Shown here: positions 46,310 through 64,000 of the stretch, in pieces | Position numbering within the stretch: position 1 is the first letter of the stretch | Layout: every line of letters starts with the position of its first letter | Notes under the pieces: generated by a model | Told to the model about the DNA's origin: nothing | The model's input: only the letters and a program-made list of their open reading frames with translations | Databases searched by the model: none | Assembly: GCF_001886715.1 (NCBI RefSeq) | Contig: NZ_CP018082.1 | Coordinates: 2,480,001 to 2,544,000 of the forward strand | From: Nocardia mangyaensis | GTDB taxonomy: Bacteria > Actinomycetota > Actinomycetes > Mycobacteriales > Mycobacteriaceae | Direction of reading: 5' to 3' | Length of the DNA: 64,000 nt | Translations under genes and position numbers: made by a program

Positions 46310-46744
46310 CTAGAGGCGCCCGGTGTCTTTCAGCACTCGGCGGGACTGGGCGAAGAGCATGCCCACGTTGACCGTCTTGCGGCACACCACCACCACGACG
46401 AGGTCGTCGCGGCTTTCCGCGCGCAGGAACAGGTGGGTGAGGTTGTTGGAGTTGACCAGGATCTCCTGGAAGTAGTGCTCGTCGCTGCGGATGCCGCGGC
46501 GCTCCTTCCAGATGTCCTCGATCATCACCACATTGCGGCCCTGGAACAGATCGAGGGTGGCGGCGGCGAGCAGGTCGAGGACCTCCGGCGGGTGGTTGTC
46601 GACCGTTTCCACCGACAGCAGCATGCCGGTCGACATGTCGATGACGCCCGCGGCGACGCAGTCGGGCACTTCGGTGCGCAGGGCCTTGACCAGGCCGCCG
46701 AGCCGTTCGGTCATGGTGGCGGGGGCGGTGTTGTTGGTGTTCAC
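46310..46744 (-). CDS. Roadblock/LC7-domain protein
   Basis: 144 residues from GTG 46744, overlapping the upstream gene by four bases (GTGA). Roadblock/LC7 fold: LGGLVKALRTEVPDCVAAGV, DMSTGMLLSVETV and LFLRAESRDDLVVVVVCRKT. Such proteins regulate small Ras-like GTPases in bacteria, as MglB does for MglA and as CvnB does in the actinobacterial conservons. No GTPase, DUF742 or kinase gene is next to it, so this is not a conservon. Its partner here is the DUF4388-like gene. Confidence 0.8.
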   Translation of the reverse strand: MNTNNTAPATMTERLGGLVKALRTEVPDCVAAGVIDMSTGMLLSVETVDNHPPEVLDLLAAATLDLFQGRNVVMIEDIWKERRGIRSDEHYFQEILVNSNNLTHLFLRAESRDDLVVVVVCRKTVNVGMLFAQSRRVLKDTGRL

Positions 46745-47652
46745 GTGATCCTCTCGGTGCGCCGCGGCGGCGCACGGTGCTCGTCCACGGCGGTCGTGGA
46801 CGGTGGAGCGGCCTGCGGTGGACGTGGCCGCAGGGTGTCGTTGATGCCGCTGGCGCCACGACGACGCCGCGGCAGGGCGGGGTCGACCGTGCCCGGCCGG
46901 GTGGCCGGATTCCGGTCGACGGGCAGGGTGGGCACGGTGAGGTGCCCGGTGGTGAGCAGTCGGCCGACCTCGACGGTCACCGGGTAGAGCGGGCGGCCCA
47001 GCAGGAACGCCAGATCGCGGCAGCTGCGGGTGCTGTCTGCCAGGCGCAGGATCTCGGCTGCGACGCCGTTGGCCCTGTCGCGTTCGGCCCGACCGAAGTC
47101 GCTGAGCGCCAACAGGTTCCGGTAGGGCGAGAACCCGGCATTGGCCAGCGCGGCGAGTCGTCGTTCGGTCTCGGCCAGCAGCCAGTGCGGTTCGTAGCCG
47201 GGGTCTTCCTCCCCGAGAACGCGCGGGTCGGTGGCGATCCAGTGGCAGCGATCGATCCAGCCCGCCGCGATCGCGAACGTGCCGTCGACGGTCGCTGTCA
47301 TCCGGAGCAGGCGGGTGCGCGCGGCGCCGAGTGGTCGATCACCGGCCTGCTGATCGAAGCCCGGTGCGCCACCGGTGGTCACGGCGACGATCCGGCCGTC
47401 GACGAAGCGGAGGTCACCGCCTGGCTCGCCGGTGATCCGCAGGATCCCGGTGAAGCGGCCCGCGTCGGCCTCGGCGAGCGCCGACTCGAGCGGGCGCGTG
47501 GTGTCGCGCAGGGGGTCGGGAAGCTGCATGGTGGTCACATCCGGCGGTCGGCAAGGGAAGGTGGGCGCCGGTTCGGCACGAGGGCGGGCCCGGCGCAGAC
47601 GAGCCAGCAACGGCCACGCGGCCATCACAGTGAGTATCTCCGGCACCTTCAT
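46741..47652 (-). CDS. Protein with N-terminal DUF4388/PATAN-like domain, function unknown
   Basis: 303 residues from ATG 47652. The true start may be ATG 47529, which begins right before the folded part (MQLPDPLRDTTRPLESAL). The segment GRFTGILRITGEPGGDLRFV plus DGRIVAVTTGGAPG resembles DUF4388/PATAN sequences, which occur with two-component and GTPase signalling in other bacteria. The middle (AALANAGFSPYRNLLALSDF, LADSTRSCRDLAFLLGRPLY) looks like a small winged-helix. The last 70 residues are basic and Pro-rich. It is coupled to the roadblock gene, so they probably work together. Confidence 0.55.
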   Translation of the reverse strand: MKVPEILTVMAAWPLLARLRRARPRAEPAPTFPCRPPDVTTMQLPDPLRDTTRPLESALAEADAGRFTGILRITGEPGGDLRFVDGRIVAVTTGGAPGFDQQAGDRPLGAARTRLLRMTATVDGTFAIAAGWIDRCHWIATDPRVLGEEDPGYEPHWLLAETERRLAALANAGFSPYRNLLALSDFGRAERDRANGVAAEILRLADSTRSCRDLAFLLGRPLYPVTVEVGRLLTTGHLTVPTLPVDRNPATRPGTVDPALPRRRRGASGINDTLRPRPPQAAPPSTTAVDEHRAPPRRTERIT

Positions 47653-48058
47653 CGGGCAGGACGGCCGAGTTCGCCAGCGAACTCAGCGCATCGAGGCGTG
47701 TGGCGGCCGCGCCGGGTGCTCGCCCGCTGACGATTCACCCCACTCGATACCGGAAACCTGTCGGTACACAGGTGCGGTGAGGTGCTGAATGTGTCGATAT
47801 CTCACGACGTTCCCCTGAGAATTGCTGACGCGTACGGACATTGCCGCACCCTGACCGTGGCGCCCCGACCGGTGTCGGTGTCGTCGCGTGAGCGAAATCC
47901 TGACAGCACTGTGGATTTCGAGCAACCGATTCCGGGAAATTCGATTCGGTATTCTTCCGGAGAAATCAACCGGTCGGTCTGTGGGGTCTGGCAATTGCCT
48001 GGCCACCCTGTTTTCCGTGCCCGAGAACGCGTCAAGTCAGGTTGGCGGGAGCGAGGTT
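47653..48058. other. 406-bp gap downstream of jetC, no gene seen
   Basis: This is where jetD would be expected in a standard type II Wadjet order. No frame here resembles the JetD DUF2399/Toprim-like part on either strand. The GC content falls around 47760-48000, consistent with a control region for the downstream DUF4388-like gene. A pseudogene remnant could not be recognised. Confidence 0.5.
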
Positions 48059-51000
48059 TCAGCCGACCGGGGCGGGTGTGCCGGGCATGCCCTCCAGGGT
48101 GAGTCCGCCTTCGATGGTGTTGGGAACCCGGCGGCGGTTGGGCGAACCGAGGGCGGTGGTGAGGTCGCCGCCGTCGTGCTCGGCGAGCAGTTCGCCGCTG
48201 TCCCAGACGAGCAGGGTGGCGCTGACGGTGTTCTCCGCGGTCGAGTGCGCCAGGTCGTAGTGGGCGCAGCCGGGGACGTGACCGTAGGTGATCCACAGGT
48301 CGTAGCCGGTCATGAACAGATCGAGGTCGAATTGCACACTCAGCCCGAGCAATTCGCTGCGGCCGTTGTCGTCGACCCCGGCGAAGGCCTCGTCCAGGGC
48401 CAGCAGGCGCGGCGCCTGCGGGTCGGCCGAATCGAGCATGACGTGCGCCGCGGCGAACAGCGGAAGGTGGAGCGAGACCGACTGTTCACCACCCGAGAGG
48501 GCGCTGTGGCGGGCGACGGTGAGCTTGTCCTCGGTGCCGTCGCCGGAGATCAGGGTGAACGAGAACACCCGCCAGGTGCGGTAATCGAGAGTGGCGGCCA
48601 GGATCTCGGGGTAGGACCGCTCGGGATGAGCGGCGCGGGACGCGCGGATCTCGGCGGCGAAATGCGCGCGGACCGCGCCCAGGTCCTCCGGGCTCAGCGC
48701 GGCGGTGTCGCGGTCGAGCAGCTTGCACATGGCACGTGCGGCCTCGGACAGGCCGTCGGCCAGGATCCAGTGCACGCCGATGGTGTTGCCCGAGGACATC
48801 CGGCGCTGCTTCATCTCCGCCCCCATGCGCGAGATGAGTTCGCGGGCATCGGTGGTGCGTTCGTGGATTTGCTGGGCCAGGCCGGTGAGCAGGGCGTCTT
48901 CGAGGATGCGGCGTTCGGCGTCGGTGAGCAGCAGTTCCTGATCGCGGCGGGCGGCGTCGATGCGGGCGGCGAACTCGGCGAGGGCGGCCTGGCCGTTCTC
49001 GTCGTGCACGGCCACCACGGTGAGTCCGTCGGCGGCGTCCCAGTGCAGCCGGTAGTCGCGGCCCGACGCGGTGAGCGCGGCGTCGAACTCCTGCAGCGCG
49101 CTGGTCACCGCCGAGCGGGTGGACTTGCGTCCGGCCTCGGTGGCGCGGACCTGTGTGGTCGCGGCGTCGAGGTCGGCGAACAGGGCGGCCACCTCGTCGG
49201 GCAGCACGACCAGATCGGTCTCCGGGCCCGCGGTGAGGATGCGGTACTGCAGTTGCTCCGGGGTCGACCAGGCGGCATCGCTGCTGGGCCACCGGTGTTC
49301 GACCGAGGCGCCGAGCAAGCTGAGCAGGTCGGGACGGGCGTACGGGGCCAGTGAACGGACCTCGGCCATGACCTCGGTGAGCGCGGTGGCCAGTGCTTCG
49401 TTGGCGGTGCGATACGCGGCCTCGGCATCGCCGACCGCCTCGATCGCGGCGTTCGCGGCCTTGCGCGCGGCCCGCTGCTCGGCTTTGGCGGCCTCGATCG
49501 CGGCCCGCGCCTGGTCGAGCTCGCGGTCGATGTCGGCGGCGCCGGCGCCCAACGCCTCGCGCAGCGTCTCCAGCTTGCGCTGCTGCTCGGTGTATCCGAG
49601 CCGGGCGGCCTCGGCCTCCTCGGCGAACGCCTCGGCCAGCGCCCGGGCTTCGTCGTACCGGTCGGCGCCCTCGCGTTCGCGTTCGCGCTCCCGCTCGTGC
49701 TCGGCACGCAGGCGCAGCAGCCCGGTGCCGGTGTTCTCGAAATGCCGGATCGCGGCGGCGAGCGCGTCGAGTTCCCGTGCCTCACGCGGGGTCCGGTGCG
49801 CCTGCGCGGCGGCCCGCAGCTTCTTGTCCTGCACGGCGACCTCGGCGACCGCCTGGTCGAGTTCGCGTTCGGCCTGCGCGGCGGCCTCCACACGAGAGCG
49901 CATCAGGCCCGCGGTCTCGGCGACCGCCCGCAGCGCCGAGGTGACCGCCGCCGGGCGCGGCAGTGCCTTCGCGGTGGCCGACAACGCGGCCAACTCCGCA
50001 GTGGCCCCGGCCTCGTCGGTCTTCGCTGCCTCGAACTCGGCCACCGCCGCTTCGATGGCGGCCTCGATCTCGACGAGCCGCGACTCCCGCCTACGCGCCC
50101 GCGCGGTGGCACCGAGGAACTCTGCCTCGGCCTTGTGATGGCGGCCGATGAGTACGGCGGTGCGGAAGGCGCCGGTGGCGCCGATGACGATGCCGTGTGC
50201 CTGCGTGGCGAGTTCGGAGAGGGCGGGATCGCCGGTGCGGCCCGGCGTGCGCTGGGTGGGAGCGGGCGGCGGTGACATCTGGTCCGCGCGGGTGCGGTGC
50301 CCGGTCGGGCCTCCGGTCTCGTCGGGGTGTGCGGCACCGGTCGTGCCGGGCGCGGCGTCGGGATCGGCTGCGGCCGGATCGGCAAGACCTGCACCGGCTG
50401 TGGCGGGTACCGCCGAATCGGTGGCGCCCCGCACCTCGTGCAGGGCGATGGAGGCGAGCACCGCGGCGACGGTGTCGGTGGGGACGGTGAGCTCGGGGGA
50501 GTCCTCTTCGACCACGAGGACATCGGCGAGGGTGCGGCCGGTGGGGCGTTGGTCGGCGGGGAGGGGGAGCAAGAAGTGCTCGGACTCGATGTCGGCGGGC
50601 AGGGTCGGGCCGCAGATCCAGCCGTCGAGCAGGCCGCTGGACTGCAGGGCGGCTTCGATTCCCGCCGCCTCGGCGGGAGAGACCGAATCGGCGAAGCGGA
50701 CCAGACGCCACAGCGGTGCGCCGGGAAGTCCTTCGCGCACACCGGTTCTCGCGGGATGCGGCGGGGGAGCGTCGTCGTGCTGGGCGGCGATCTGCGTGCG
50801 CTCGGCGGCGAGGGCGTCGCGCCGCCCGGCGGCGATGGTGGCGCGGGAGCGGGCGTCCTGACGGCGGGTGCGGATCTGCTCCTGCAGTGGTTCGCAATAT
50901 TCGGCCAGCACTTCCGGCGCGGACGGGATGTCGTCGACGCCGACCCCGGCAACAGCCGCCTCGAGCGCCTCGAGCAATCCGATGGCCGAGTCGCCTCGGT

Positions 51001-52654
51001 CGCCAGCAGCTTCGCGCGCCTGACCGGCACCGGTGCCGCTACCGACGGCGGGTGAGCGCGGGCCGGCGTCTTCCTGGCTGTTCGCCGGATACTGGGGATC
51101 GGTGCTGGACATGCCGGACCGGCTGTCGGTTGCCGATTCCGTCGGCTGGGCCACCGCCGCGAAGACCTCGGTGTGCGCTGTCCACCAGGTGCGCAGGGCG
51201 GCGGCGGATTCGCTGCGGGCGAGGGCGACGGCCGCTTCGGCATGGGCGACTTCGGCGGCGGCGGCCTCGCGCAGTTCGATCGCGCGTTCGGCGAGGCGTT
51301 CGGCGCGGGTGCGCTCGGCGGCGGCGGATTCCCACTTGCCCGCCGCGGTGCGGACCGCGCGGACGTCGGCGTCGCGTTCCTCGGCGTGGCCACGCACGGC
51401 GGTGGTGAACTGGTCGCCACGACCCTCGGCGCTCGGCGGGGTCCACTCGATGCCGGCTTCCTCGGCGGCGGCGCGCAGGGCGTCTTCGCCGCGGACGAGC
51501 GCGGCACCGGCCGTGCGGACGGCTTCGGCGGCGCGTTCGGCTTCGGCGGCGCGGCGCTGCAGGGTCTGCCCGGCCTCGGCGGCCTTGTCGCGGTGGGCGG
51601 CGGCGGAGGTCTCGAGGCGGCGTACGGCGTCGGCGAGGTCGTCGAGTTGCTGTTTTCCCTCGTAGGCGCTGGAACGCTGCAGGTTCTCGCGGTCGGCGAT
51701 GGCCTGCTCGTAGGCGCGGTCGGCGTCCTCGGCCCTGGTCTCGGCGGCGGTACGGTCGGTCTCGCGGCGGGTGCGCAGGGCGGTCGCGGCGAACAGCGCG
51801 GTCGAGGCATTGGTGACCGCGTCGAGGCGGGCGCGGACCTGGTCGACATCGGTCTTCGCCTGCACCGCAAGATATTTGCGATAGACATCGACGAACCGGC
51901 GGGTCGCGGTGTCGGCCTGGACGAGTCCGTCGAGCGTGCGCCCGACCTCCTCCATATCGCTGAACGAACGGGCCGCGTCGAGGATGAGCTGTTCGTCGAG
52001 CGGCCGCAGACCGTCGGTGAGGGCCTGCGAGAGCCCGCGCGGGTCGAGGTTCTTGGCGAGCTGGGGGCGCCGCAGCGTGAGGATCAGGTTGATCAGCTGG
52101 TCATAGCGCTGCACGCCGAGCCCGAACATGCGCGCGTCGATCGCGGCGCGGTACTCGACCGGCCGATCGACGATGGCATCGCTGCCGATCTGCTCGGCCA
52201 ACTGCTTGCGCGTCAGCGGGCGGTCGTCGGGACCGATCAGGGAGAAGTCGACCCCGGCGCGGCCGTCGGCGACGAAATACCAGCGGGTCACCTTGTCGGA
52301 AGAGCGGGTGGCGCGCATCCCGATGCCGACGGTGACCACCTCGGGGTCGTCCCAGTCGCCGCGCGCGAACTCCATCCACACATACGAGTACGCCGACTCC
52401 TGCTTGCGATACAGCAGATTCGACTTCATGGTGCGTTCTTCACCGGCGAACGGATTGAGCCTGCGCGGTTCGATCCGGCCGTCGAGCACGAACGGGAACA
52501 GCACCTCGAGGGCCTTGGTCTTGCCGGACCCGTTGGGTCCGCGCAGCACCAGGCGGCCGTCGGCGAAGCAGAACTCCTGGTCACGGTAATCCCAGAGGTT
52601 GACGATGCCCGCGCGGGTGGGGACGAAACGCACTCCGCCGTGAATGAGCGTCAT
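48059..52654 (-). CDS. jetC: Wadjet type II SMC-like ATPase JetC (TIGR02680 family)
   Basis: 1531 residues. The N terminus NLWDYRDQEFCFADGRLVLR carries Walker A GPNGSGKT at 39-46. Long coiled coils are interrupted by two low-complexity stretches (about 503-556 and 743-810) that make it longer than the ~1350 typical of the family as I know it. The C terminus has signature LSGGEQ (1386-1391) and Walker B ALDEAF (Glu1422). In Wadjet this MukB-like motor extrudes DNA loops and detects small circular plasmids. All ATPase motifs are intact, so it is not a decayed gene. It starts 4 bp after jetB. Confidence 0.92.
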   Translation of the reverse strand: MTLIHGGVRFVPTRAGIVNLWDYRDQEFCFADGRLVLRGPNGSGKTKALEVLFPFVLDGRIEPRRLNPFAGEERTMKSNLLYRKQESAYSYVWMEFARGDWDDPEVVTVGIGMRATRSSDKVTRWYFVADGRAGVDFSLIGPDDRPLTRKQLAEQIGSDAIVDRPVEYRAAIDARMFGLGVQRYDQLINLILTLRRPQLAKNLDPRGLSQALTDGLRPLDEQLILDAARSFSDMEEVGRTLDGLVQADTATRRFVDVYRKYLAVQAKTDVDQVRARLDAVTNASTALFAATALRTRRETDRTAAETRAEDADRAYEQAIADRENLQRSSAYEGKQQLDDLADAVRRLETSAAAHRDKAAEAGQTLQRRAAEAERAAEAVRTAGAALVRGEDALRAAAEEAGIEWTPPSAEGRGDQFTTAVRGHAEERDADVRAVRTAAGKWESAAAERTRAERLAERAIELREAAAAEVAHAEAAVALARSESAAALRTWWTAHTEVFAAVAQPTESATDSRSGMSSTDPQYPANSQEDAGPRSPAVGSGTGAGQAREAAGDRGDSAIGLLEALEAAVAGVGVDDIPSAPEVLAEYCEPLQEQIRTRRQDARSRATIAAGRRDALAAERTQIAAQHDDAPPPHPARTGVREGLPGAPLWRLVRFADSVSPAEAAGIEAALQSSGLLDGWICGPTLPADIESEHFLLPLPADQRPTGRTLADVLVVEEDSPELTVPTDTVAAVLASIALHEVRGATDSAVPATAGAGLADPAAADPDAAPGTTGAAHPDETGGPTGHRTRADQMSPPPAPTQRTPGRTGDPALSELATQAHGIVIGATGAFRTAVLIGRHHKAEAEFLGATARARRRESRLVEIEAAIEAAVAEFEAAKTDEAGATAELAALSATAKALPRPAAVTSALRAVAETAGLMRSRVEAAAQAERELDQAVAEVAVQDKKLRAAAQAHRTPREARELDALAAAIRHFENTGTGLLRLRAEHEREREREREGADRYDEARALAEAFAEEAEAARLGYTEQQRKLETLREALGAGAADIDRELDQARAAIEAAKAEQRAARKAANAAIEAVGDAEAAYRTANEALATALTEVMAEVRSLAPYARPDLLSLLGASVEHRWPSSDAAWSTPEQLQYRILTAGPETDLVVLPDEVAALFADLDAATTQVRATEAGRKSTRSAVTSALQEFDAALTASGRDYRLHWDAADGLTVVAVHDENGQAALAEFAARIDAARRDQELLLTDAERRILEDALLTGLAQQIHERTTDARELISRMGAEMKQRRMSSGNTIGVHWILADGLSEAARAMCKLLDRDTAALSPEDLGAVRAHFAAEIRASRAAHPERSYPEILAATLDYRTWRVFSFTLISGDGTEDKLTVARHSALSGGEQSVSLHLPLFAAAHVMLDSADPQAPRLLALDEAFAGVDDNGRSELLGLSVQFDLDLFMTGYDLWITYGHVPGCAHYDLAHSTAENTVSATLLVWDSGELLAEHDGGDLTTALGSPNRRRVPNTIEGGLTLEGMPGTPAPVG

Positions 52655-52658
52655 CTGT

Positions 52659-54032
52659 TCAGTTCCCTCCCGCTGCGGTGCCGCCGGTCTCGGCGGCGGT
52701 GACGAACAATTCCTCGGTCCGACGGACCCGCACGGTGACCACCGCGCCCCGGTACCTGGCCAGTGCGGGCAGCACCAGCAGTCCGCCCTCGACGGGCCGG
52801 ATCAGGCGCAATCGGGCCAGCAGCGCGAGCACCTCGTCGGTGAGCGCGCCGACATCGGCCTGCCACTGTGCGGCGAAGGTCGCGCCGTATCGATCGGTCA
52901 GCGCGCTGACGGTCGCGCGTACCCAGGTCTCGTCGAGGAACGGATGGGTGCTCGGCTCCGTGTCCGGCGATTCCTCGTCGGACTCGGCGGCATCGAGGGT
53001 CTGCGCGTCCTCGGCCAGCGGGGCGAACACCCCCGCCTCGGGAATGGCCGCGTCGAGCTGATCGAGCAGCAGGTCTTCGGCCGCGGCGACGTCGGGCCGA
53101 TGCGGTACCGGATGATCGATGTCGAGCACCACATCGGCGATCTCACCGATCAACAGCAGCGCCACCTGGGCGAGGGTGCCGGTGCCGGGAAACCTGGTGT
53201 CGGACAGCCGCCCCGAGGTGTCGATGAGTGCGACCCCCTCGGCCCGGCGTTCCGCGCGCAGACCCGTGCAGTACTCGACCTCGGCGATCACCCGGTCCTG
53301 GCCGAGAAGCGCGCGCTCGCCGGGCGAGAGCTCCGCGAGGTAGACGACGGGCCGCTCCACCAGCGCCCGCCGCACCCGGCGGGCCTGGTCGGCGGCGGTC
53401 TGCTCGGTGTCCTCGGCGAGCAGACCGCGCACGGTGTGCAGGTGTTGCAACGCCCGCGGCGGCCGGAACAGCGCGAACACCACCGGGCGGTCGATGTCGT
53501 AGAGCGCCTCGCCCGCCTCCGGGTCGCTGGCCCAACCGCCCGCGTCGCCATCGGCCAGGGTCAGCGCGCCGCGCGCGCCCAGCCAGCCGACCGCGTCGAC
53601 GAACGCGTCGCGATCGGCGGCCCGCTCGGTCGACAGGTCGAGCCCGTCGATCCGGCTCGCGTAGTCGGCCACGTGCTCGGCCAGTTCGGACAGCGTGATC
53701 TGGTCACCGGCCCGGCCGAGCGCCGCCAACGCCAGCGAGAGGTAGGCGTAGCGGCGACGATCGAAGACCCGGTCGTTGACGCTGCGTGCGGGTCTGCCGT
53801 CGTCGAGCCGATCGTGGACGGGATAGAGCCGGGCCGTGGTCTCGGTGACCTCGAGTCGATAGCCGAACAGCTCGGCCAGGTCCTCGCGCAGCTCGGTGGC
53901 CCACCGGCGGATCAGCGGCAGCGCGATCCGATCGGGGAATACCCGGGTGACCAGGTGATTGGCCAGTATCACCCGGGCCGCGCGTTGATAGCTGTCCAGG
54001 GCGAGGGCATCGATGCGGCGCTGCTGCCTCAT
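52659..54032 (-). CDS. jetB: Wadjet type II JetB (DUF2398, TIGR02678 family)
   Basis: 457 residues from ATG 54032, overlapping the jetA stop by four bases. It begins MRQQRRIDALALDSYQRAAR and has DVLLD-type helical kleisin-associated segments, FDRRRYAYLSLALAALGRAG and RPVVYLAELSPGERALLG, typical of DUF2398. An acidic, low-complexity patch (EDAQTLDAAESDEESPDTEP, about 345-365) interrupts the C-terminal half. In Wadjet this is the KITE-like subunit that links the kleisin JetA with the JetC heads. Family assigned by sequence character and order. Confidence 0.85.
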   Translation of the reverse strand: MRQQRRIDALALDSYQRAARVILANHLVTRVFPDRIALPLIRRWATELREDLAELFGYRLEVTETTARLYPVHDRLDDGRPARSVNDRVFDRRRYAYLSLALAALGRAGDQITLSELAEHVADYASRIDGLDLSTERAADRDAFVDAVGWLGARGALTLADGDAGGWASDPEAGEALYDIDRPVVFALFRPPRALQHLHTVRGLLAEDTEQTAADQARRVRRALVERPVVYLAELSPGERALLGQDRVIAEVEYCTGLRAERRAEGVALIDTSGRLSDTRFPGTGTLAQVALLLIGEIADVVLDIDHPVPHRPDVAAAEDLLLDQLDAAIPEAGVFAPLAEDAQTLDAAESDEESPDTEPSTHPFLDETWVRATVSALTDRYGATFAAQWQADVGALTDEVLALLARLRLIRPVEGGLLVLPALARYRGAVVTVRVRRTEELFVTAAETGGTAAGGN

Positions 54033-55666
54033 CGCGCCGCCCCCCGCCGGGCCGCGGCGCGCACCTCGAGGCGCCGGTTGTTCAGGTGCAGCAGGCCGGC
54101 CGCGGTGCGGATGACGGTCGACCCGTCGCACGGCCGCACGGTCAGCGTGACCCCGTTGTCCGAACCCGTGGTGCCATCGACGGTTCCGCTCACCGGCACC
54201 CACGCGGTGGAGGCGGCGTCGAGCAGGCGCAACAGCACCTCGGTCTCGCGCTCGTCGAGCACCCGTTCGTGCACCGCGCCGGTGGCCAGCGACGCGGCCG
54301 CGGCCGCCCGCTCGCGCTGCGCGGCCAGCTGGGCCTCGCGCAATCGGCGCACGCCCGCGTCGTTGCGCGCGATCCGCGCCGGTGCGCCCGCGGTGGGGGC
54401 GCGACCGGTCTCGGCGAGGGTGCGCGAGATCTCCAACGGTGGCGCGTCCCACCAGGAGCGGCTCGTCGGGATCAACTCGGCATCGGGATGTTCCAGGGCC
54501 AGGTGGCGCGGCCTGCCCAAGCCGAACACCGCGTCGTAGAGCGCGTGCGCGCTGCCCGCGGTCGGAGTGTCGACGAACCACGCGGCCAGGTGGCGCAACG
54601 CGGACTCGCGGCTGACGCCGCCACGGCGGGTCTCGGTGACGCGCCGCAGCAGCGACAGCACGGCGGCGATCGCGCTCATCGTCGCCTCACGCAGCCGGTC
54701 GGCCTCACAGGACTCGCTGGACTCGCCGCCCGCCGCGACGAACCAGGTGCGCAGCCCGTCCCAGCGCGAGCGCCAGTCGGCCTCGCGTTCGGCCGGGCTC
54801 ACCAGTACCCGCTCGTCGCAGCCGGCCGCCCGGCGGATCAGCGCGTCGGCACCGGTGTCCTCGACCTCGCCGATCGCCGCTGCCAGCCGCGGGGCGAACC
54901 GGGCCAGATCCATGCTGAACTCGCGCATGTGCGCCAGCAAGGCGTCTTTGTGCGCGAGAAAGGACTCCGGCGTGATCTCGGTGGTGCGCACCAGATCGCC
55001 CAGCGACAGGTAGAAGTGCGCGGCGCGCGCGGCCATGTCGGTCAGCGCGGCGTCGAGCCTGCGCAAGGTGGTGTAGACGCGCTCGGCGTCGCCGTCGCGA
55101 TTGGCCGCGGCCAGGGTGCGCAGGTCGGCGAGCAGTTCGGGCAGCACCAGCCGCGACAGCGAGGCGTCGTCCATGCGGGCCGCCAGCACCCCGGCCACCG
55201 CCCGGTACGCCTGGAAGCCCGCTTGCGCGAACTGGTAGACGTAGTGCCGGTTGCGGTACTCGGCCAGGGTGGCCGCGCGGGTGCCGTCATAGCTGCGTTC
55301 GAGCACGCCCCAACGGTGCAGCTGCTCGAGCAGCGGGCCGATCTCGACGGCGGGCAGCGGCACGCCCGCCGCCCCGTCGCCATACACGGCGCTCTCGGCC
55401 CTGGCGATCCACTCGGCGACGTCGTCGGCGTGCAACAACACCACGTAGGCGGCACGCGCGCTGTCGAAGGCGCGCAGCACCCGCAGGTAGTCGGCGCGCT
55501 TCTCCGCGGTCGCGAACGAGAACAACCGCAGACGCTCGTCCCACAGGGCGGGCACGGCGCTGGGCAGGCCGTCGGCGGAGTCGGTCACCGTAGAGAGGGT
55601 AGTGGTGGCCACCGACGACTCCGCCGGACCCGTCCCGGCTCGGCGTGGCATCGCCGCCGCGCTCAC
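54029..55666 (-). CDS. jetA: Wadjet type II JetA (DUF2397, TIGR02677 family)
   Basis: 545 residues from GTG 55666, which overlaps the regulator stop (GTGA). ATG 55651 or GTG 55588 are possible later starts, since similarity begins around ERLRLFSFATAEKRADYLRV. Further DUF2397 marks are YVYQFAQAGFQAYRAVAGVL, LPELLADLRTLAAANRDGDA and the late LRHLAAWF. JetA is the MukF-like kleisin that bridges the JetC motor. No stop or frameshift was seen. Confidence 0.87.
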   Translation of the reverse strand: MSAAAMPRRAGTGPAESSVATTTLSTVTDSADGLPSAVPALWDERLRLFSFATAEKRADYLRVLRAFDSARAAYVVLLHADDVAEWIARAESAVYGDGAAGVPLPAVEIGPLLEQLHRWGVLERSYDGTRAATLAEYRNRHYVYQFAQAGFQAYRAVAGVLAARMDDASLSRLVLPELLADLRTLAAANRDGDAERVYTTLRRLDAALTDMAARAAHFYLSLGDLVRTTEITPESFLAHKDALLAHMREFSMDLARFAPRLAAAIGEVEDTGADALIRRAAGCDERVLVSPAEREADWRSRWDGLRTWFVAAGGESSESCEADRLREATMSAIAAVLSLLRRVTETRRGGVSRESALRHLAAWFVDTPTAGSAHALYDAVFGLGRPRHLALEHPDAELIPTSRSWWDAPPLEISRTLAETGRAPTAGAPARIARNDAGVRRLREAQLAAQRERAAAAASLATGAVHERVLDERETEVLLRLLDAASTAWVPVSGTVDGTTGSDNGVTLTVRPCDGSTVIRTAAGLLHLNNRRLEVRAAARRGAAR

Positions 55667-56895
55667 CCGGCGTTGAGTGAGCGCAGCTGGTCGAGGAACG
55701 ACTGGGTGCGCGGGTCTCCGGGATAGCGTTCGATGATCTCGCGCGCCGCCTCACCCGCGATCCAGGCCAGCGAGGGCAGCGAGCGCCTGCCCGCGGTGAA
55801 CGCCGCCACGCCTTCTTCGACCGCGCGTTCGAGATCGCGATCGCGCACGGCGACCACGGCCAGGGTCAGCCGCGCCTCCGAGACCCGCATGGGATTGCGT
55901 ACCGAACCGTCGGGTCTGGTCGCGTCGCGGATGACCTGCTGGGCGTAGCGCTCGGCGAGCCGGTCCTGGCCGGCCACCCGGCAGCAGTCCATGGCGTAGA
56001 AGTCGAATTTCGTTGCGTCGACCACGAAATGGTTCTCCAGGTTGGCCGGATGGCCCATCCGCGCCAGGATCGACCGACCGTCGTCGAGGGCGGTCTGCAC
56101 CGCGCGGCGGTCGCCGAGCCGGGCCCAGCCCTTGGCGCGCTGAGCGGCCAGCTGCACCCCGACACCCATCGACGTGGTGCCCGCCATCGCCTTCTCCGAG
56201 ACATCGATCGCGCCACGGAAGTTGCCCTGGGTCAACGCGAACCACGCCGACATCTCCGCGGCCCAGCCGACGATCTCGACATTGCCCGCCTCCCGGCCGA
56301 GCGAATCCGCGGCCCGGCGAGTGGCCTCCGCGCCGGCGCGACGGCCGAGGTCGTAGTCGACGCAACCCACCAGCAACGCGACCCAGCCGGCCAGGACGAG
56401 GATCTCCCGATGCTGGCTCAGGGTGAGTCTGCCGTCGAGCAGCGAGGTGATCCGGCGCAGCCACGCCGTCCCCTCGGCGTGCAGATCGTGCGGATCGGCG
56501 TAGGCGTATTCGCAGCAGAGCCGCTCGGCGGTGATCCGCACCGCGTCCAGGGTTGCGCTGTTGACATCGGACATCCGTAGCCTGCCGATGAATTCGAGGG
56601 TGTCCATGCCGGTGGCGGATAACAGCTCGTCATCGCGGTTGGGTCGGGCCTTGGGGAAGAACGCGGCGGTGACGGTGTCGAACGCCGCCGCGATGATCGG
56701 GGCGTAGAACTCGTCGGGGCGCGATTCCCCGGATTCCCAACGGCGCCAGTTGCGTAGCAAGGTACTGTCCGTCGGCAGGTTGTGGGAGGACTTGGCCCGC
56801 ATGGCGCGAACGGCATCGGCTTGCGACCACCCCCTCGCGTCACGTTCCGAGCGCATCCGGACAGCCCAGACGGGTCGATCATCAGTTGCGGTCAC
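55663..56895 (-). CDS. XRE-type helix-turn-helix regulator with TPR-like C-terminal part
   Basis: 410 residues from GTG 56895 (ATG 56856 possible). The HTH lies at about 10-70 (RMRSERDARGWSQADAVRAM, then LPTDSTLLRNWRRWESGESR). The rest is alpha-helical, TPR-like (TLSQHREILVLAGWVALLVG, RLGDRRAVQTALDDGRSILA, ERAVEEGVAAF). Actinomycete proteins of this type often control development or accessory genes. Its stop overlaps the jetA start, so it is the first gene of the Wadjet operon and is expressed together with it. No Shine-Dalgarno is evident; the transcript may be leaderless. Confidence 0.83.
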   Translation of the reverse strand: MTATDDRPVWAVRMRSERDARGWSQADAVRAMRAKSSHNLPTDSTLLRNWRRWESGESRPDEFYAPIIAAAFDTVTAAFFPKARPNRDDELLSATGMDTLEFIGRLRMSDVNSATLDAVRITAERLCCEYAYADPHDLHAEGTAWLRRITSLLDGRLTLSQHREILVLAGWVALLVGCVDYDLGRRAGAEATRRAADSLGREAGNVEIVGWAAEMSAWFALTQGNFRGAIDVSEKAMAGTTSMGVGVQLAAQRAKGWARLGDRRAVQTALDDGRSILARMGHPANLENHFVVDATKFDFYAMDCCRVAGQDRLAERYAQQVIRDATRPDGSVRNPMRVSEARLTLAVVAVRDRDLERAVEEGVAAFTAGRRSLPSLAWIAGEAAREIIERYPGDPRTQSFLDQLRSLNAG

Positions 56896-57542: not shown

Positions 57543-58430
57543 TCACAGACCGAAACTGCCGGGACCTCGCCTGCGCAGGTACTTCTCGAACTCCGCGGCG
57601 ATGGCGTCGCCGTCGATCTTCGACATCGTCTCGCTCAGGTCGAGCGCCGCGTCACCGCGCTCCTCGAGCGAGCGCACGTACTCGCTGATCTCCTCGTCGC
57701 CCTCGGTCATCTCGTTGACCGCGGCCTCCCACTCCTCGGCCTGCTTGGGCAGCTCGCCCAGCGGCACCTCGATGTCGAGCACGTCCTCGACCCGGTGCAG
57801 CAGCGCGATCGTCGCCTTCGGATTCGGCGGCTGCGACACGTAGTGCGGTACCGCGGCCCAGAACGACACCGCGGGTACACCGGCCTTGACGCACTGGTCC
57901 TGCAGCACGCCGGTGATCCCGGTCGGGCCTTCGTAGCGGGTCTGTTCCAGATTGAACCGCTCGGCCGCCTCGGGACTGTAGGCCGAACCGGTCACCGGTA
58001 CCGGGCGGGTGTGCGGGGTGTCGGCCAGCAGCGCGCCGAGGATCACCACCGTCTCCACGCCCAGCTGCTCGATGAACTCGAGCAGGTCGTCGCAGAAGCT
58101 GCGCCATTTCATGTTCGGTTCGATCCCGCGCAGCAGCACCACATCGCGGTCGCTGCCGGGCGGCGAGCACACCGACAGCATGGTGGAGGGCCACTGGATC
58201 TCTCTGGTCACCCCGTCGACCTGGCGGACCGTGGGACGGTTCACCTGGTAGTCGTAGTACTCCTCGGAATCGAGCTCGGCCAGCGGTTCGGCATCCCAGA
58301 TCAGCTCGAGGTGTTCGACCGCGCCGCTGGCCGCGTCACCGGCGTCGTTCCAGCCCTCGAAGGCCGCAACCAGCACGGGATGACGCAACGTCGGCAATTC
58401 CGTCTCGGGGGTGTCACTGGCATCCACCAC
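57543..58430 (-). CDS. PAC2-family protein
   Basis: 295 residues from ATG 58430. PAC2 (proteasome assembly chaperone 2-like) domain: PVLVAAFEGWNDAGDAASGA at the start, SPPGSDRDVVLLRGIEPNMK, ETVVILGALLADTPHTRPVP and PAVSFWAAVPHYVSQPPNPK. The C-terminal 70 residues are acidic and helical. In actinobacteria these proteins are conserved beside metH; their role is not established, although a tie to the Pup-proteasome has been suggested by fold. It diverges from metH across 136 bp. Confidence 0.9.
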   Translation of the reverse strand: MVDASDTPETELPTLRHPVLVAAFEGWNDAGDAASGAVEHLELIWDAEPLAELDSEEYYDYQVNRPTVRQVDGVTREIQWPSTMLSVCSPPGSDRDVVLLRGIEPNMKWRSFCDDLLEFIEQLGVETVVILGALLADTPHTRPVPVTGSAYSPEAAERFNLEQTRYEGPTGITGVLQDQCVKAGVPAVSFWAAVPHYVSQPPNPKATIALLHRVEDVLDIEVPLGELPKQAEEWEAAVNEMTEGDEEISEYVRSLEERGDAALDLSETMSKIDGDAIAAEFEKYLRRRGPGSFGL

Positions 58431-58566
58431 GTCAGCCTAGTGTCTCGTGCGAATTGTTTTGCGGTGACCGGCGCTGTTGGCAGAACGCGTCGCGCGCTGT
58501 GGCCGGGGCCACTGGATTCACCCACAGTGGTCTGCCGCGTCGGTGGCGCCCTCTAGTCTGGAATGC

Positions 58567-62163
<3,597 letters not shown>

Positions 62164-62182
62164 GACACTGCGCATGACGGCA

Positions 62183-62214
62183 GATCGGATCGGTCCGGTG
62201 GGACCGATCCGATC
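62183..62214 (+). terminator. metH terminator hairpin
   Basis: GATCGGATCGGTCC (62183-62196) pairs perfectly over 14 bases with 62201-62214 around loop GGTG, 20 bp after the metH stop. GTCGTTGTG follows, so there is only a weak T-containing tail. Confidence 0.85.
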
Positions 62215-62380
62215 GTCGTTGTGCGGCCTGTGAGTCTGGTCACGATGCGACGGCGTGTCCTTCGCCCGGACTGCCCTGGAACCGGGGCAAAGCAGTTCAG
62301 CACGTAGGATTTTCGAAGTTTCATCCCGCTGTGGCGCGGAGGGCTGGACGACTCGGCGGTAAGCAGGAGGGGCGCAAGTC

Positions 62381-64000
62381 ATGACATCGGATCGGTTGAT
62401 CGCGGGACGCTATCGACTCACCGACCCGATCGGCACGGGCGCGATGGGGGTGGTGTGGCGAGCCACCGACGTGCGGTTGCGCCGCACCGTCGCGGTGAAG
62501 CAGGTGCTGCTAGCACCCGGCCTCACCGGCTCGCAGGCGCTGGAGGCGAAGCTGCGCGCCATGCGCGAGGGCCGGATCGCCGCGCGTCTGCATCATCCCA
62601 ACGCCATCACCGTCTTCGACGTGGCCGAGGAAGACGGCCAGCCCTGGCTGGTCATGGAATACATGAACGCACCCAGCCTGGCCGCCAAGCTGGCCGGTGG
62701 CGCGACGTTGCCGCCGATCGAGGTGGCCGGCATCGGCGCCCAGGCCGCCGCGGCGTTGTCGGCCGCGCACGACGCCGGGATCATGCACCGGGACGTGAAG
62801 CCGGCCAATCTGCTCGTCGGTGACGACGGCACCGTCAAGATCACCGACTTCGGCATCTCGCATGCCACCGGCGACGTCACCGTGACGGCGACCGGGTTCC
62901 TGGCGGGTACCCCCGCCTACCTGGCGCCCGAGATCGCGCGCGGCGACAGGCCCAAATCCGCCGCCGACGTCTTCGCCCTGGGCTCCACGCTCTACGCCGC
63001 CGTCGAGGGCGCCCCGCCGTTCGGCGAGGGCGACAACCCCCTGGCGGTGCTGCACGCCGTGGCGCGCGGAACGGTGCCGGAGCCGAAGAACGCGGGCCCG
63101 CTCGGCCCGGTACTGATGTGGCTGCTGACCGCGGACCTGGAGCACCGCCCGACCATGGCTGCGGCCCGGCTGGCGCTGGAAGATGTCGCGGCGGGGCGGG
63201 TTCCGTCGCTGCCCGCCTCGCTGACCAAGGTGCTTCCGGTGAGCGAGGCGGCCACCACGCTGCTGCCACGGCCGGGGCAGGGCGCTGGGACCGACGGTGC
63301 GAAGTCGGGAGCGGCCGCACTGCTCGGCAGCGGTCTCGCCTTCGCCAAGGCGGCCCGCTCGGCGATCACCGGGGGATCGTCCTCGCCGCGTTCCGGCGGA
63401 GCCGGTGCGGGGGCCGGATCCGCGGGCGAGCTCGCGCAGACGCCAGGCTCGGATGCCGCGGTGCGCGCGAACACGGCAACCGCCGGATCCGACCGCGACC
63501 ACGACGCCGCACCCACCGGATCGGGCCGCCCGCCCGTCTTCCCCACCCCGCCCGCGCGCAGCGACTCGGCGACCAACAGCCGCGCCGTCCTGCTGCTCGC
63601 CGCCGCCGTCGCCGCGTTCGCGGTGATGCTGGTCGTCCTGGTCGTCACCCGGGAACGGGGCGCCGACCCCGGCCAGCAGGCCCAGACACCGCCGCCCGCG
63701 GTCACCGTGACAACGATGGTCGACGGCAAGGTGAGCACCGTGGTGATCGTCCCCGAACAGGAGACCATCACCGTCCCGGCACCCGTCCCGCCCGCCCCCG
63801 ACGGCTCGGCCGCCCCGGCGAGCACCTCACCGACGCCGACCAGTACCTCCGGCGCCCCCACCTCGACACCGTCGGCCACCAGCACCACCACGACCCCGGC
63901 CGGACCTCCCTCGCCGGACCGGATCAACCAGTTCATCGCCGGGTATTACGGCATGTTGCCGGGCAATGTCGGCGGGGCGTGGGCTCAGCTGGCCCCCGGC
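62381..64000 (+). CDS. Membrane-anchored Ser/Thr protein kinase (cut by window end)
   Basis: 540 codons from ATG 62381, behind AGCAGGAGGGGCG, still open at the window edge. Hanks-type kinase: glycine loop IGTGAMGVV (17-25), Lys40 (VAVKQV), catalytic HRDVKPAN (136-143), DFGIS, and GTPAYLAPEIARG in the activation segment. After about residue 275 comes an Ala/Gly/Ser-rich juxtamembrane linker, one membrane helix (about 402-423, LLLAAAVAAFAVMLVVLVV) and a Pro/Thr-rich extracytoplasmic stalk leading to a folded part that starts near DRINQFIAGYYGML. It resembles the mycobacterial Pkn receptors; the sensor domain type cannot be seen. Confidence 0.93.
   Translation, partial: MTSDRLIAGRYRLTDPIGTGAMGVVWRATDVRLRRTVAVKQVLLAPGLTGSQALEAKLRAMREGRIAARLHHPNAITVFDVAEEDGQPWLVMEYMNAPSLAAKLAGGATLPPIEVAGIGAQAAAALSAAHDAGIMHRDVKPANLLVGDDGTVKITDFGISHATGDVTVTATGFLAGTPAYLAPEIARGDRPKSAADVFALGSTLYAAVEGAPPFGEGDNPLAVLHAVARGTVPEPKNAGPLGPVLMWLLTADLEHRPTMAAARLALEDVAAGRVPSLPASLTKVLPVSEAATTLLPRPGQGAGTDGAKSGAAALLGSGLAFAKAARSAITGGSSSPRSGGAGAGAGSAGELAQTPGSDAAVRANTATAGSDRDHDAAPTGSGRPPVFPTPPARSDSATNSRAVLLLAAAVAAFAVMLVVLVVTRERGADPGQQAQTPPPAVTVTTMVDGKVSTVVIVPEQETITVPAPVPPAPDGSAAPASTSPTPTSTSGAPTSTPSATSTTTTPAGPPSPDRINQFIAGYYGMLPGNVGGAWAQLAPG

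Follow-up and report, generated by a model that had tools for sequence, protein, structure and literature searches.

We identified an intact set of the type II Wadjet genes jetA, jetB and jetC, and no jetD, in a stretch of 64,000 nucleotides from Nocardia mangyaensis (contig NZ_CP018082.1, positions 2,480,001 to 2,544,000; hereafter the window). The three genes lie co-directionally on the minus strand (55666-48059, by profile matches in the window), and the gene for the type II JetD nuclease was found neither beside them nor anywhere else in the genome. Going by its gene content, the locus appears to be a variant, a type II Wadjet core without JetD and not a complete Wadjet system, a classification we chose because three of the four defining genes are present and the nuclease was looked for and not found. 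We see about an even chance that this intact JetABC core has been retained as a nuclease-free loop extruder of the structural maintenance of chromosomes (SMC) kind, an auxiliary condensin akin to MksBEF.

Each of the three proteins matches the models of its type II family. JetA scores 241 bits against TIGR02677 (NCBIfam cut-off 166) and JetB 138 bits against NCBIfam TIGR02678 (cut-off 125), the JetB profile scans having used a longer frame (52659-54581) with the jetB start then set at the ATG at 54032. JetC matches Pfam SbcC_Walker_B at 71 bits and carries a complete set of ATPase motifs, with the Walker A sequence GPNGSGKT at about residue 39, LSGGEQ at about residue 1387 and LLALDEAF at about residue 1421 (further scores in Table 1). 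The start of jetB overlaps the jetA stop by 4 bp, and 4 bp separate jetB from jetC. The nearest solved relatives of the window JetC and JetA are PDB 9qe0/9qe1, with chains 9qe0_A (JetC, E=1.5e-66) and 9qe0_E (JetA, E=6e-14) as closest matches, while JetB has no match in the PDB at E<=1. A preliminary description of this DNA had presented the three genes as intact and tightly packed, with all JetC ATPase motifs and with a 406-bp gap in place of jetD, and the profile scores, spacing and motif positions agree with it on each count. The gap is correctly placed, and tblastn with six cognate JetD queries (that is, JetD encoded beside the same jetABC in relatives; E<=1) found no JetD remnant in the window. 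The gene list of the preliminary description stands as far as these three genes go, and omits an upstream NsdA-family gene that overlaps jetA by 4 bp.

The same description had suggested that jetD might be encoded elsewhere, which genome-wide searches (one contig, 7.31 Mb, completeness given as 100) do not support. TIGR02679 returned a single chance match of 12 bits, PF09664 returned zero matches, and PADLOC JetD2 reached at best 17 bits, in a match with two internal stops, followed by 12.7 bits, compared with 294-374 bits for four cognate JetD of relatives. By these tests the JetD nuclease (DUF2399, TIGR02679) that a type II set requires is missing. The sole JetD in the genome is of type I, seen as a PF09983 (JetD_C) match at 5.02 Mb, and comes fourth in a complete type I operon with its own JetA1, JetB1 and JetC1 partners. 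We also considered the 410-aa gene overlapping jetA on its upstream side as a candidate jetD and ruled it out, as it is the NsdA-family regulator and matches zero PADLOC and zero Pfam families. Initial blast searches placed JetD matches within JetC, in 12 Nocardia loci and in others, and an artefact is the best explanation: the stop-to-stop JetD query frames, mainly that of locus L156, extended out of frame into the jetC gene. Once trimmed, the queries gave zero matches in Nocardia; two other loci gave three weak ones (E 0.28-0.79), all well away from jetC.

The three-gene form recurs across the genus, a point on which the preliminary description had asked for a check. Orthologous JetA (E<=1e-100) is present in 127 of 150 Nocardia genomes, at one match per genome, and no cognate type II JetD was found in any of the 150. 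DUF2399 matches do occur, 62 in total across 54 of these genomes (50 above cut-off), and all of them were read in 59 loci (L082-L101, L181-L208, L271-L281). Where JetA neighbours of these matches were found they are 27-32% like the window JetA; eleven loci (L181-L191) have distant JetB and JetC (~30-39%) and no JetA match, the short loci L083-L086 and L098 have a distant JetC end only, and L198, L199 and L279 have distant JetC pieces only. Another 12 loci have no Jet neighbour by blast, several being fragments or weak matches (L200-L205, L207, L208, L277, L278, L280, L281). A tree was built from the 59 Nocardia DUF2399 frames, trimmed to their last 420 residues and with four matches in genome G031 forming one frame (hence 62 matches and 59 frames), together with 19 cognate JetD; the cognates group together in a single clade (support 0.987), and all 59 frames fall outside it. 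Neither a DUF2399 nor a JetD_C match is present in 68 of the 127 JetA-bearing genomes. Nocardia also carries a different kind of Wadjet in which jetD precedes jetA (L082, L087-L097, L099-L101, L271-L276), and other Wadjet loci with jetD after jetC (e.g., L083-L086, L098).

From a JetA search among named genomes we kept the best 80 of 110 loci, all from Nocardia and with a top identity of 92%. Those of them placed in the JetABC tree described below group in one clade with the window and a genome of the genus labelled g1, and on these grounds we take g1, the genus of the 150 genomes, to be Nocardia. Trimmed cognate JetD queries found no JetD remnant in these 80 loci. Counting the window with them, JetC is complete in 63 and at least 1.2 kb of sequence lies beyond JetC in 61. 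JetC is a single reading frame in 103 of 103 loci with both ends matching, from Nocardia and other genera; L167, one of these, extends to the end of its contig. Of 120 JetC, 119 have the Walker A motif and the remaining one (L063) begins after it, and the signature and DEAF motifs are present in all 102 JetC that reach the C-terminus. In L063, from Nocardia crassostreae, the JetC frame is missing its Walker A end and JetB gives a short match, reflecting either decay or a sequencing fault.

Ratios of nonsynonymous to synonymous substitution rates (dN/dS) are in line with an argument already made in the preliminary description, that conservation speaks against decay. Across ten Nocardia pairs, JetA has a dN/dS of 0.04-0.19 and JetB one of 0.09-0.21; for JetC it is 0.04-0.17 over the whole protein and 0.01-0.06 in the C-terminal part, with 0-0.06 for a neighbouring PAC2-family gene as control. 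Six jetD-less pairs from outside Nocardia give 0.03-0.19 for JetA, 0.07-0.23 for JetB and 0.05-0.15 for JetC, the top JetA and JetB values coming from a pair with dS of 0.01. For comparison, four jetD-bearing pairs from genus g6 (genera are given by our labels) yield 0.04-0.06 for JetA, 0.08-0.12 for JetB, 0.06-0.08 for JetC and 0.09-0.14 for JetD, with a PAC2 control of 0.01 (three pairs). JetA, JetB and JetC are under purifying selection without JetD, somewhat less tightly in Nocardia.

We next turn to relatives that carry jetD at the same locus. A family survey of 301 genomes found JetA (E<=1e-40) in 119: 20 Nocardia, 98 genomes in eight other genera, and one distant case (G349, 33% JetA identity) left out of the 98. 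Of the 98, 26 carry cognate jetD next to this jetABC; coordinates show the adjacency in every one of them, and in 14 the locus was read as well. The 26 fall in g6 (22/29), g23 (2/26), g16 (1/4) and g27 (1/17), with none in g10 (0/14), g22 (0/6), g25 (0/1) or g28 (0/1); one g27 genome (G362) was too fragmentary to score. No DUF2399 match was obtained in 71 of the 98, in a search that did not include JetD_C. In all 11 loci where the spacing was measured, the JetD match begins 2-31 bp past the jetC stop. Orthologous JetA also occurs in 19 genomes from other families of the class, and 5 of these have jetD at jetC. One locus (L241, genome G627) has JetA alone, with no JetB or JetC match in 18 kb.

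The gene beyond the operon shows what changes when jetD is present or absent. In most g23 and g6 loci the operon is followed by mshC, encoded on the other strand (three loci were tested and score 735-741 bits against TIGR03447). With jetD present, mshC ends 37-40 bp past jetD in g23 (2/2) and -20 to 69 bp past it in g6 (10/10). With jetD absent, it ends 26-61 bp past jetC in seven of the eight mshC-bearing g23 loci and at 2193 bp in the other, one further jetD-less g23 locus having no mshC. In g6, mshC lies 59 bp past jetC in the jetD-less locus L146, whose sister L139 has jetD, and the remaining six jetD-less loci have gaps of 129-1088 bp. In g6 and g23, jetD may accordingly be viewed as a segment that is cleanly present or absent between jetC and mshC. 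In g16, mshC occurs in 3/3 jetD-less loci (14, 29 and 1073 bp) and is absent from the jetD-bearing locus of genome G190; in g10, g22 and g27 it is 1.6-7.3 kb off or outside the locus. It was not found at the locus in outgroup families, and among 65 Nocardia loci mshC appears in none and PAC2 in 52. By eye, inverted repeats lie directly past the jetC stop in L157, L173 and L146, between the convergent jetC and mshC, and are likely a shared terminator.

To follow the history of jetD, we joined JetA, JetB and N-terminal JetC into a tree of 92 rows and 1298 columns, thinning Nocardia to 18 rows and dropping L241 (for want of JetB and JetC) and the short L250 and L266; another tree had Nocardia thinned to 22 rows and left out L167, whose contig ends in jetC. 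The JetABC tree largely tracks genera, with g1 (Nocardia), g10, g22, g27 and f19 each on one side of a branch and g6, g16 and g23 needing two changes each, and the tree program gave a long-branch warning for L172, L177, L238 and others. The 18 Nocardia rows form one clade (support 100), with jetD-bearing G190 as its sister (support 99). The presence of jetD changes state at least nine times on this tree (L167 scored as jetD-less), and a loss-only model takes 19 losses for 91 tips, 19 of them jetD-bearing (L167 dropped). Because jetD sits at the same position and the 19 cognate JetD form one clade, it was more likely lost repeatedly than gained repeatedly, although a clean congruence of the JetD and JetABC trees fails on a conflict at moderate support, described below for G190. 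Tip lengths, compared in three pairs only, are longer for the jetD-less member in L146 vs. L139 and L269 vs. L156, and shorter in L245 vs. L244.

In Nocardia, the genus-wide absence of jetD implies that it is old, and the gene was likely lost before Nocardia diversified. The preliminary description had named a recent deletion of jetD in close relatives as evidence that would count against it. In other genera jetD is indeed a segment present in some loci and missing from others, whereas in Nocardia it is missing genus-wide; this outcome sharpens the finding.

The preliminary description had alternatively proposed that the ABC motor now works with other partners, and none came to light: no replacement nuclease or new partner for JetABC was found among the neighbours examined. 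The NsdA-family gene upstream of jetA, a predicted helix-turn-helix (HTH) and tetratricopeptide repeat (TPR) regulator, occurs in 75 of the 80 named Nocardia loci, at distances to jetA from -4 bp to ~7 kb and often 0.5-7 kb. It was not seen in any locus read outside Nocardia, and is possibly a Nocardia-specific regulator of jetABC. Downstream, no replacement gene follows jetC in common, as the largest cluster of frames, on the opposite strand, covers 26 of the 109 jetD-less loci that extend 2.5 kb or more past jetC, and the largest on the jetC strand comprises 24 loci, all Nocardia, at a median of 1.2 kb, and may consist of shadow frames. In the window itself, two minus-strand genes overlapping by 4 bp (46310-47652; 303 aa and 144 aa) lie downstream of jetC, the first without a Pfam or NCBIfam match and the second without an NCBIfam match and roadblock-like by eye; among the 80 Nocardia loci this pair is found only in L003 and L006. 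An antisense frame of 1316 aa (58432-62382) used as a synteny marker is a shadow of metH. We also tried an IFDR-like motif in JetB (R-x-FDRR) as a retained JetD docking site, since the IFDR motif of type I JetB is reported to contact JetD (PMC10586767). A similar motif occurs in JetB of other type II systems, and it is therefore uninformative on docking here.

Table 1 Features of the jetABC locus in the window, its neighbours, and the type I operon elsewhere in the genome
Feature	Coordinates	Strand	Description
jetA (DUF2397, predicted kleisin)	54029-55666	-	545 aa, GTG start; PADLOC JetA2 613 bits, DUF2397 468 bits
jetB (DUF2398, predicted KITE)	52659-54032	-	457 aa; PADLOC JetB2 674 bits, DUF2398 237 bits
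jetC (SMC-like ATPase)	48059-52654	-	1531 aa; PADLOC JetC2 1413 bits; TIGR02680 721 bits, cut-off 463
Gap where some non-Nocardia relatives have jetD	47653-48058		406 bp, without convincing gene; next plausible gene starts at 47652
NsdA-family HTH/TPR regulator gene	55663-56895	-	NCBIfam NF053720 90 bits, cut-off 75; overlaps jetA start by 4 bp
PAC2-family gene	57543-58430	-	PF09754 240 bits; upstream neighbour in Nocardia and in some loci of several other genera
metH	58477-62163	+	TIGR02082 1561 bits
Complete type I Wadjet operon	L178:3933-10830 (~5.017-5.024 Mb)		PADLOC JetA1 451, JetB1 213, JetC1 923, JetD1 295 bits

Taken together, these patterns suggest that JetABC may be kept for a job that does not depend on cutting, the nature of which we infer from its family. 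Passages of two papers describe JetABC as a dimeric ATP-driven loop extruder, with JetD cutting once a circle has been fully extruded (PMC10586767, PMC12647877). By analogy, the JetC heads would bind and hydrolyse ATP, JetA would close the ring with JetB supporting it, and the complex would reel in DNA; without JetD the motor should still bind and extrude DNA, leaving the extruded DNA uncut. MksBEF of Pseudomonas aeruginosa is described as having likely arisen from JetABCD by loss of JetD and as contributing to chromosome organisation (PMC10586767). Based on this precedent and on the family mechanism, we take a nuclease-free, condensin-like role to be the most likely one. Least certain is that its main substrate would be the chromosome, rather than plasmids held or silenced uncut. 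More tentatively, and with somewhat less than even confidence, we propose that the type II core in Nocardia and related actinobacterial genera could be a vertically inherited chromosomal SMC complex, an additional condensin, with JetD as an optional, repeatedly dropped warhead.

Several observations weigh against the condensin-like role. Orthologous JetA is absent from 23 of 150 Nocardia genomes and is therefore dispensable; a stop codon interrupts 3 of the 127 JetA matches (in G066, G134 and G148), and some matches are partial. Nocardia pairs show somewhat higher dN/dS for JetABC than the jetD-bearing g6 pairs do, with the PAC2 control rising too. The JetD of G190 groups with g27 JetD (support 0.88; repeated in the 59-frame tree), in conflict with the JetABC tree, and recombination may therefore have restored jetD in some cases. 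Finally, all four genes are reported to be needed in B. subtilis to suppress plasmid transformation (PMC10586767), a requirement that is silent for or against a second role.

The main rival to a condensin-like role is that JetABC acts on plasmids without cutting them, reeling in small circles and silencing, trapping or mis-segregating them, like Smc5/6 on extrachromosomal DNA. We regard this as possible, yet unlikely: the DNA-handling part is intact and conserved, and a costly nuclease would explain the repeated loss of jetD alone, whereas the B. subtilis work had plasmid suppression requiring all four genes (PMC10586767). Less probable still, and rather doubtful in our view, is that a nuclease acting in trans replaces JetD, be it the genome's own type I JetD or some unrelated enzyme. 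This genome does carry a type I JetD in a complete operon, and 59 of the 127 JetA-bearing Nocardia genomes have some DUF2399 or JetD_C match; against this, the other 68 have neither, 71 of the 98 other family genomes have no DUF2399 match (with JetD_C outside that search), type I JetD is a separate family with its own partners, and no frame downstream of jetC is common to more than 26 of 109 jetD-less loci. That the system is simply decaying, with jetD gone first and jetABC following, is already disfavoured and seems to us very improbable. The missing JetA orthologs, the somewhat faster evolution relative to jetD-bearing g6, the truncated L063 JetC and the three stop-bearing JetA matches speak for it; against it, JetA persists in 127 of the 150 Nocardia genomes, the ATPase motifs are intact, dN/dS stays far below 1, and several other genera share the lack of jetD.

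Should the proposal of an additional condensin with an optional JetD hold, some Wadjet systems counted as plasmid defence in Nocardia and related genera would cut no plasmids. Wadjet is reported in 42% of Actinobacteria genomes (PMC10482375), and such counts may include nuclease-free complexes, depending on the detection rules. The evolutionary relations between defence and chromosome-folding SMC complexes are called unresolved in one account (PMC10586767), and jetD-less loci bear on how the two interconvert. Because jetD is absent many times over at a single orthologous locus, and close relatives include both states, these loci offer natural pairs of the same motor with and without its blade. 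Among open-licence full texts, going by listings and the starts of abstracts, we found no paper on a genus-wide jetD-less type II Wadjet.

Compared with known systems, the window locus is closest to type II Wadjet (JetABCD; PDB 9qe0/9qe1; nvJET of N. vireti, a complex reported as able to cut circular DNA, PMC12647877, which we take PDB 9qe0 to represent), sharing its families, ATPase motifs and A-B-C order; type II Wadjet has jetD, whereas the window operon and its genome do not. EptABCD of M. smegmatis, described as mycobacterial SMC-based plasmid restriction (PMC10586767, PMC12287153), comprises four genes including the nuclease, unlike the three-gene set here. MksBEFG, or type I Wadjet (C. 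glutamicum), is of the same architecture class, and this genome has a complete type I copy at another site (L178), differing as a separate operon of other families (DUF3375, DUF4194, JetD1) with its own nuclease. Like the window locus, MksBEF of P. aeruginosa is a three-gene set of SMC, kleisin and KITE proteins without a nuclease. By sequence it is not the same system: with MksBEF taken as belonging to the type I families (DUF3375, DUF4194), PADLOC matches for the window JetA and JetB are to type II models alone, and the window JetC has a weak type I match (JetC1, 37 bits) vs. 1413 bits for JetC2. MksBEF is reported to have a role at the chromosome, and for the window complex such a role is a prediction.

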